A DNA stretch of 35,335 nt, taken from NCBI GenBank assembly GCA_020356065.1, contig CP070632.1, positions 1,730,287-1,765,621 on the forward strand. The letters run 5' to 3'. The translations under genes were made by a program, and so were the position numbers. This stretch comes from Nitrospiraceae bacterium. GTDB taxonomy: Bacteria > Nitrospirota > Thermodesulfovibrionia > UBA6902. Shown one piece after another: positions 8,292 to 11,010 of this stretch (its first letter is position 1; each line of letters starts with the position of its first letter). The notes under the pieces were generated by a model. It saw only the letters and a program-made list of their open reading frames with translations. It searched no databases and was not told where the DNA came from.

Positions 8292-8359
8292 GAAATAAAA
8301 TGTGCGGGGGCATGTCGTATCATGCACCCTGTAACAGGAAATCATTCAGGAGGTTTCAC

Positions 8360-8884
8360 ATGCAGGAACTGGAAAGACACAAAGCATTTGAACTTGCATC
8401 GCCTTTTCCCTATGTCCTTGTAGTCACACAGGACAAAAGAGACAGACCGAACATCATGGGACTTTCATGGTGGACGTTTACATCCTGGGATCCACTCATG
8501 ATCGGGATCTCCGTTGGCCTTAAAAAATATACTCACGAGTGCCTTGAGAACCATAATGAGTTTGTGATCTGCTTTCCGTCCGAGGGACAGAAAAAGGACG
8601 CCTGGTTATGCGGGACGAAAAGTGGAAGAGATATCGACAAGTTCCAGGAAACAGACTTCAGGCCGGCACACTCAACAGTTGTAAAACCCCCAATAATAGA
8701 GGGCTCAACCGTCGCGTATGAATGTAAAATTACCAAACACGTTGTTACCGGCGACCACACGCTGTTTATCGGAAACGTCGTTGCAATACATGGTAATCCT
8801 GATAAATTAAACCATCTGTATTCGATCCACTACACAAAGCTGATAAGTATCGGCTCAGGCGGTGAAATAAAGATGGATTTGTAG
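8360..8884 (+). CDS. flavin reductase-like FMN-binding protein
   Basis: This is a 174-residue protein of the split-barrel flavin reductase family, whose members bind FMN and often reduce flavins or act as flavoredoxins. The start at 8360 is fixed by a strong CAGGAGGT six bases upstream; an upstream in-frame ATG at 8300 lacks one. Family features include the N-terminal ASPFPYVLVVTQDKRDRPNIM strand pair, GLSWWTFTSWDPLMIGISVG, and a C-terminal VVTGDHTLFIGNVVAIH. It sits between a DUF1614 gene and the multiheme cytochrome, so a link to periplasmic or membrane redox chemistry is possible, though the protein itself lacks a signal peptide. Confidence 0.88.
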   Translation: MQELERHKAFELASPFPYVLVVTQDKRDRPNIMGLSWWTFTSWDPLMIGISVGLKKYTHECLENHNEFVICFPSEGQKKDAWLCGTKSGRDIDKFQETDFRPAHSTVVKPPIIEGSTVAYECKITKHVVTGDHTLFIGNVVAIHGNPDKLNHLYSIHYTKLISIGSGGEIKMDL

Positions 8885-8930: not shown

Positions 8931-10145
8931 ATGAGTTCATTTCCACGACAAATCTGGCTGTCTGTACTGCTTATTATTATGTTGCTCCCGCATTCTGCAT
9001 TTTCCAAAAAAGCAGATACAATTGATGAACTTGTTGCCATGTATAACATAACACCGTGTGCAGAATGTCACGAAGACAAACATGACGAGTGGAAGTCGTC
9101 AACCATGGGTAATTCTGTCATTGATTCCCGTGTCCTGAGGGGATTTAGGACATTTATAAAAATGGAACTTGACAAGGAAAAAACACTGTCCCGGAAGAAC
9201 CTTACCATATGTTTAAACTGCCATGTACCGCATATTAAAGATGCATCGGAGCAGCTCATTGTAACGATTGCTGATATGGTGATCACATCAATGGAGGACA
9301 GTAATGTCGATAAGCGGGAAGCGGCAAAAAAAGAGTTGTCAAAGCTCAACATTAACTGCCTTGGATGTCATAATCTGAAAGCCACAGGATTTAACTCCCA
9401 GCCCGAACCGGGAGTTATTTATGTACCGAATGATATTAATACCGATGCCCATAAAGAAGCCGGATACAAGACCATAAAATCTGAATTCATGAAGACATCT
9501 GATTTCTGCGCCCAGTGTCATCACTGCCCTCCGGACGTGCCATGGGACAAATGCCCCACTCTTTATACAACGTATATAGAGGATTTCATAGGCAAGGGAA
9601 GAAAAGAGACGTGTCAGGAATGTCATATGCCGGGAGAGGAAAAAAGTCATAAGTTTCTCGGGCCTGATAATTCAGATTTCCTCGAATCAGCAGTGACACT
9701 CACTCTCAATGCCAGGGCCACCAGATATATTGATATTTATGAAGATAAAATGATACCAACACTTGCCCTGAAAATAAACCTGACAAACAACGCGGGACAT
9801 ACCATACCGCACGGCTGAGCATTTACGCCAAAGGCGGTCCTGGATGTGACCGTGAATGATGACAAAGGCAGGCTAATTTTTTCGGATCACAAGGATTTTC
9901 ACGTAGGTGATCTTTATTTCAAGGGAGGCAAAAGGGTGGCAATGGCAGAATGGGATGTCACAGCGACCGAACACTTTGACCTTGGATTAAAGGCCCTTGA
10001 AACTGATGCCCACACATATATCATCCCTCTTGAAGAAAACCTCAAAAAAGTAACGGTTGAGGCGGAATTCCGTTACCTGTATACCAGAGATAAGACATTT
10101 TCTGTGCAAAAAGCTCTCAAGGAAGTTGTTATAGAAAAGTATTAG
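8931..10145 (+). CDS. multiheme cytochrome c, putative selenoprotein (in-frame TGA at 9816)
   Basis: One frame of 404 codons, interrupted only by TGA at 9816-9818 (codon 296). The N-terminus has a signal peptide (cut near AFS-KK, residue 25). Five CXXCH heme sites follow at about residues 43, 94, 143, 193 and 228, so the protein should be a periplasmic electron carrier or reductase. Past the hemes comes the beta-rich C-terminal domain common in such cytochromes, with the motif NAGHTIPHG just before the TGA and AFTPKAVLDVTVNDD just after. No further stop occurs for 108 codons. The frame after the TGA has only a GTG near its start with no reliable ribosome site and would not be exported alone. 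Reading TGA as selenocysteine explains this and agrees with the stem-loop at 9820-9858. A nonsense mutation or sequence error is the alternative. Confidence 0.75.
9819..9858 (+). promoter_or_regulatory. candidate bacterial SECIS element after TGA
   Basis: Directly after TGA (9816-9818), CATTTACG at 9820-9827 pairs fully with CGTGAATG at 9851-9858 (8 bp, one G-U). Inside it CCA (9828-9830) pairs with TGG (9841-9843), AA bulges on the 5' side, GG (9833-9834) pairs with CC (9839-9840), and the loop is CGGT (9835-9838). The loop begins 16 nt past the TGA. In E. coli fdhF the comparable design is a 5'-side bulge and a GGUC loop about 18 nt past the TGA. A competing fold pairs CGGTC (9835-9839) with GACCG (9848-9852). 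The structure was read by eye, not computed. Confidence 0.5.
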
Positions 10146-10378: not shown

Positions 10379-10933
10379 CTATTTTTCAAAAAGCTTAAGA
10401 TATTTTTCATACCCCTCATCTCTCAGTTTATTTACAGGTATGAATCGCAGCGATGCTGAATTAATACAGTAGCGAAGCCCCGTAGGTTCAGGACCGTCAT
10501 CAAAAACATGACCGAGGTGGGAATCGGCGTATTTGCTCCGAACCTCTGTCCTTGTCCTGAAAAAGCTTCTGTCCTCTTTTTCAACTATATTTCCAGGTTC
10601 AAGCGGTTTTGTAAAGCTTGGCCAGCCTGTTCCAGACTTATACTTGTCAGTAGAACTGAACAGAGGTTCTCCGGAAACTACATCTACATATATCCCCGGT
10701 TCTTTGTTGTCCCAGTACTCGTTTTTAAAGGCCCTTTCCGTATCGTCTTCCTGGGTAACCCTGTACTGAAGTGGTGTCAGCATTTTCTTAATTTCATCAG
10801 CTGAAGGTTTCATGTACGTTTTACCCGATGTTCTCTGCGCAGAAACGTCCGTGTCTGAGGCATATGCATTGATCATGCCGATACACAAAAGCACTATCAG
10901 CAGTGTATACACAACAATTTTAATTTTAAACAT
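10379..10933 (-). CDS. msrB: peptide-methionine (R)-S-oxide reductase, exported
   Basis: MsrB repairs methionine-R-sulfoxide in oxidised proteins. The 184-residue product carries an N-terminal signal peptide (cut near AYA-SD), so it should act in the periplasm. The MsrB domain covers about residues 45-170 and includes [37 protein letters not shown] and the active site [11 protein letters not shown] with the catalytic cysteine near residue 156. The CXXC zinc sites of many MsrB proteins are absent, so this is the zinc-free type. The ATG at 10933 is chosen over 10939 because AGGAG (10940-10944) then sits six bases away rather than touching the start codon. Confidence 0.95.
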
Positions 10934-11010
10934 ATTCATCTCCTGATATTATCTGAAGACATGGTAGGTTGGACAATGCCCCACCTGCCGTATCTACATA
11001 AGTATTAATG

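Follow-up and report, generated by a model that had tools for sequence, protein, structure and literature searches.

An apparently interrupted multiheme cytochrome gene from a member of the Nitrospiraceae is almost certainly, to judge from its sequence and those of its relatives, an intact selenoprotein gene of the ExtKL/MccSep type, in which the UGA at codon 296 is read as selenocysteine (Sec). The gene occupies positions 8931–10145 of the forward strand of the window, by which we mean the whole stretch of 35,335 nucleotides that was analysed (positions 1,730,287–1,765,621 of the 3.17-Mb genome). Multiheme cytochromes with Sec are already recognised as a named selenoprotein family with a solved structure, and are not new; what is new is only the gene itself and the divergent Nitrospirota (Thermodesulfovibrionia) branch to which it belongs. 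That the in-frame TGA encodes Sec had been put forward in the first-pass annotation, and the proposal is now supported by an alignment column that holds TGA or Cys codons, a conserved SECIS hairpin, the presence of selA, selB and selD, and the occurrence of Sec in a solved homologue.

From the ATG at 8931 a frame of 295 codons runs to the TGA at 9816–9818 (codon 296), after which 108 further in-frame codons lead to a TAG at 10143–10145; with the internal TGA read through, the product has 404 residues including Sec296. The translation begins with a signal peptide of approximately 25 residues (MSSFPRQIWLSVLLIIMLLPHSAFS; 8931–9005), which implies export, and hydrophobic leaders are also found at the N-termini of aligned relatives. 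Behind it are five CXXCH motifs, with their first cysteines at residues 43, 94, 143, 193 and 228. The first, CAECH (Cys43–His47; 9057–9071), is invariant in two alignments; the others, recognised from the translation and alignment, are CLNCH (Cys94–His98; 9210–9224), CLGCH (Cys143–His147; 9357–9371), CAQCH (Cys193–His197; 9507–9521) and CQECH (Cys228–His232; 9612–9626). The motif GHTIPHGU (residues 289–296; 9795–9818) ends in the Sec codon, and Gly289, His290, Pro293, Gly295 and residue 296 (TGA or Cys) are invariant in the alignment. The segment that would be made by read-through (9819–10142) is a predicted C-terminal β-sandwich (immunoglobulin-like) domain, as indicated by the strands of an AlphaFold model and by a match of the tail to the family profile. 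An exported cytochrome with five CXXCH motifs, a TGA at 9816–9818 and 108 further codons of family-like content is what the first reading of the DNA had described, and all of this was confirmed, the coordinates being exact.

The read-through protein matches the NCBIfam model NF040886, ‘multiheme c-type cytochrome (seleno)protein ExtKL’, at 285.4 bits (cut-off 250), with residues 23–401 aligned onto model positions 28–422. When the protein is cut at the TGA the score falls to 237.2 bits, below the cut-off, and the 108-residue tail alone matches model positions 320–422 (E 9e-7). The model is listed amongst the prokaryotic selenoproteins in a 2026 review (‘Multiheme c-type cytochrome protein ExtKL, NF040886’; PMC13188914). 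In Geobacter sulfurreducens, a UGA predicted as Sec separates extK from extL, which might be one protein (PMC6148476), and preliminary work has proposed that ExtKL is a selenocytochrome tied to selenite reduction (PMC5877670). The window protein resembles the Geobacter ExtKL (GSU2937-2936) in its five hemes, signal peptide, UGA after GHxxPxG, SECIS and C-terminal β domain. It is, however, only 25–31% identical to members of the main ExtKL branch and lies on a long separate branch; it has GHxIPHGU where the main branch has GHxIPDGUPTPNR, and, unlike its Geobacter counterpart, it is not surrounded by extHIJ genes. The closest sequence in the aligned set (L025) is 81% identical. Cys-type homologues from groundwater Nitrospirae (L020–L024) are 60–62% identical to the window protein but have Cys (TGC/TGT) at residue 296; they lack the UGA, and their SECIS hairpin is eroded. 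A recognised but little-studied family of heme selenoproteins is thereby extended to a divergent branch of the Nitrospirota, where forms with Sec and forms with Cys coexist at approximately 60% identity, outside the Geobacter ext operon. This branch provides a natural pair for asking what selenium adds beside heme.

Solved structures also match. The window protein matches the PDB entries named ‘Multiheme cytochrome c selenoprotein (MccSep)’ (9wt8/9wt9, E ~1e-37); the MccSep entries are 9WT8, 9WTA and 9WTB, with the U325A mutant in 9WT9 and 9WTC. The residue given as X or U at position 325 (Sec325) aligns exactly with codon 296. The homology covers residues 24–329 in a single-sequence search and the full length when a profile is used, although MccSep, at approximately 450 residues, is clearly a different protein from the 404-residue one of the window. 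The AlphaFold model (mean pLDDT 78.8, pTM 0.74) has a helical heme domain followed by the C-terminal β-sandwich. Its best match amongst solved folds is the pentaheme cytochrome c552 of Thermochromatium tepidum (PDB 5ZE8, TM 0.57), a protein to which ExtKL has also been linked in a published comparison (PMC11976967). The two share the layout of a heme domain plus β-sandwich and a related PHxxPxG motif, but c552 has Ala where ExtKL has Sec, and the identity is 20%.

Of 71 aligned proteins, 60, that of the window among them, have TGA as the codon after GHxxPxG, and seven have a Cys codon (TGC or TGT); three outliers (20–24% identity) have Ser, a gap and Asp. In one further relative (L026), tblastn shows TGA at the aligned codon, which raises the TGA count to 61. 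Aligning homologues over this codon had been the suggested check, and amongst 68 family members it gives TGA (61) or Cys (7) and nothing else, an outcome in favour of the proposal. On the maximum-likelihood tree, two changes between Sec and Cys suffice, one within the window's own Nitrospirota branch and the other in another lineage of the class. Across the class, matches were found in 154 of 200 genomes and, among the matches listed, most have exactly one TGA. In comparison with L025, dN/dS is 0.11 after the TGA and 0.09 before it, by which measure the part beyond the TGA is under purifying selection. The TGA is common to independent assemblies; together with the match of the tail to NF040886 and the dN/dS of 0.11, this argues that the downstream frame is not a chance read-through.

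An SECIS-type stem-loop had been noted directly after the TGA, and the comparison bears this out: the element is conserved, with compensatory wobble changes, in members with UGA, and is eroded in those with Cys. The apical hairpin, CGGUC-CUGGAUGU-GACCG, lies at 9835–9852 of the forward strand (bases 20–37 if the U of the UGA is base 1), just 3′ of the UGA and with a G in its apical loop, as looked for in bacterial selenoprotein genes. In 57 distinct UGA sequences, CUG at 25–27 and GU at 31–32 are 98–100% conserved, including the wobble base 27, and the pair 24–33, in which both bases are at wobble positions, is C–G in 38, U–A in seven and G–C in two. Of the cells for the five stem pairs, 88% are paired as against 85% in shuffles, and none of 2000 shuffles reached 88%; sliding one side of the stem reduces the figure to 24–66%, and among the seven members with Cys it is only 63%. 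The folding energy of the window sequence is modestly unusual over 45 nt (z −1.65) and not over 60 nt (z ~0). On the sequence comparison, then, the SECIS-type hairpin is real, and it is the comparative evidence, not the energy of a single sequence, that is decisive.

With regard to the machinery, a profile search of the genome found selA (629.6 bits), selB (353.4) and selD (328.9), each above its cut-off; selD is itself a UGA gene, with the UGA in the sequence GGUAAKLGP. Both selA and selB map to 3,055,973–3,060,778. A transposase gene is situated between them (L091:7475-8692), and the pair is nearly adjacent in the relatives read. The first-pass annotation had pointed to selA, selB, selC and selD as the genes to look for; three are present, but selC was not found. 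No tRNA-Sec was detected in the genome by the Rfam model RF01852, by ARAGORN around the RF01852 hits and the sel loci, by Rfam near selAB, by a custom model for which 18 tRNA-Sec genes from this bacterial family were used, or by three patterns, and it was likewise not found in three genus mates. In a control genome (G008) tRNA-Sec was recovered by the custom model and by the third pattern. The same genome has, beside the canonical tRNA-Sec, a selC*-like long tRNA-Cys with anticodon GCA (L154:1500-1592); tRNA-Cys genes of the selC* type have been reported for Nitrospirae (PMC7609411).

Most other genera of the family have canonical tRNA-Sec genes (72–75 bits), and these, where they share a contig with selA, are mostly found 2–15 kb from it on the downstream side. 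The genome considered here consists of many contigs joined by gaps of 100 N, approximately one per 9 kb in the stretches read, and one such gap (genome 3060853-3060952; L091:10854-10953) lies 51 bp after selB. Genera g1, g2, g10, g12 and g15 have no recognisable tRNA-Sec despite having selA, selB and UGA genes, and in all ten genomes examined without one, the assembly is interrupted by a contig end or 100-N gap, either no more than approximately 2.1 kb beyond selB on its downstream side or within one of the two genes selA and selB. Because the assemblies break after selB, we read the absence of tRNA-Sec as an assembly hole rather than as evidence against Sec. This genus and some of its sister genera (g2, g10, g12 and g15) do retain selA, in most cases selB, and selenoprotein genes with UGA; that they might decode Sec with a tRNA of unrecognised structure seems improbable, and a missing contig is the likelier cause. 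In several relatives, a conserved gene of approximately 355 codons (product motif NCNISDAxxWGYYxPCGLLLR) adjoins selB or is close to the gene for tRNA-Sec (L203–L206 and L201, downstream of selB; L123:951-2018).

The UGA might instead be a true stop, the locus then being two genes or a pseudogene, with the downstream part either translated from the GTG at 9846 or dead. Standard annotation does divide such loci, extK and extL being two genes in Geobacter (PMC6148476), and a two-gene structure is likewise reported for the ExtKL homologue of cable bacteria in a text that is silent on selenium (PMC11976967), an example of how genes of this type still get split at the UGA. Against this, a position that holds only TGA or Cys in 68 members, a conserved SECIS, a dN/dS of approximately 0.1 downstream of the TGA, and a solved homologue that is a single chain with Sec at the aligned position together make a true stop hardly credible. 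It might also be supposed that the UGA is decoded as some other amino acid, by stop codon recoding or by near-cognate insertion of Trp or Cys. The failure to find tRNA-Sec in the genome would fit this, as would the occurrence of selC*-type tRNA-Cys genes in the same bacterial family (G008; PMC7609411). The genes selA, selB and selD are nevertheless intact, the SECIS is retained only where the codon is UGA, the adjoining flavin reductase and DUF1614 genes terminate normally and the homologous structure contains Sec, so that decoding as another residue is very unlikely.

A further alternative concerns the kind of cytochrome rather than the codon. The protein does match Pfam PF22113, at 31.8 bits, barely above the cut-off of 30, from which it might be taken for a decaheme outer-surface cytochrome of the MtrC/OmcA type. 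This reading was rejected, and we give it practically no credence: there are five hemes and not ten, the decaheme model TIGR03507 scores only 11.3 bits against a cut-off of 209.3, the top fold match is the pentaheme c552, and NF040886 covers residues 23–401.

If the gene is, as we conclude, of the ExtKL/MccSep type, insertion of Sec in this organism is predicted to follow the usual components: SelA would charge tRNA-Sec using selenophosphate made by SelD, and SelB would bind the SECIS hairpin after the UGA and deliver Sec-tRNA-Sec to codon 296. The product would then be exported, receive five c-type hemes and fold into the heme domain and the C-terminal β-sandwich. Since the GHxxPxG-U motif would stand at the entry of the sandwich, the selenolate, as a reactive residue, is probably close to one heme. 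From the AlphaFold model, the match to c552 and the invariance of His290, Pro293, Gly295 and residue 296, we infer that the selenolate would lie beside the hemes, where the two domains meet, and participate in a redox step fed by the heme chain; a catalytic role for the Sec residue is predicted. The protein is likely to be a periplasmic heme/selenolate oxidoreductase, that is, an electron-transfer or reductase protein. By analogy with the Geobacter work, selenite or a related oxyanion might be guessed as its substrate, although the lack of an ext operon around the gene makes any role carried over from Geobacter uncertain.

The neighbours of the selenocytochrome gene are genes for a DUF1614 protein, a flavin reductase and MsrB. 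The flavin reductase-like gene (8300–8884, forward strand; PF01613, E 6e-33) is 47 bp upstream and possibly co-transcribed; an exported MsrB (SelR domain, PF01641) is encoded convergently at 10382–10939 of the reverse strand. Flavin reductase is also the immediate neighbour in L025 and L026, and in no others. A search for a conserved operon partner across 13 loci gave only housekeeping genes, plus the flavin reductase in three very close relatives. As for the extHIJKL conduit, extH (rhodanese), extI (porin) and extJ are not adjacent to the window gene; the genome has a single PF07396 porin, at 1376814, approximately 360 kb away, with no cytochrome or obvious rhodanese gene amongst its neighbours. 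The genome does encode a second UGA-containing ExtKL paralogue, 43% identical, at 1,437,849–1,439,054 (within L092:7838-9058, genome 1437837-1439057). On its upstream side is a divergent LysR gene, an arrangement that has been described for the ext clusters of Geobacter (PMC6148476). Downstream of this second copy is a gene for a lipoprotein with a weak match to the SPOR domain, slightly below the Pfam cut-off.
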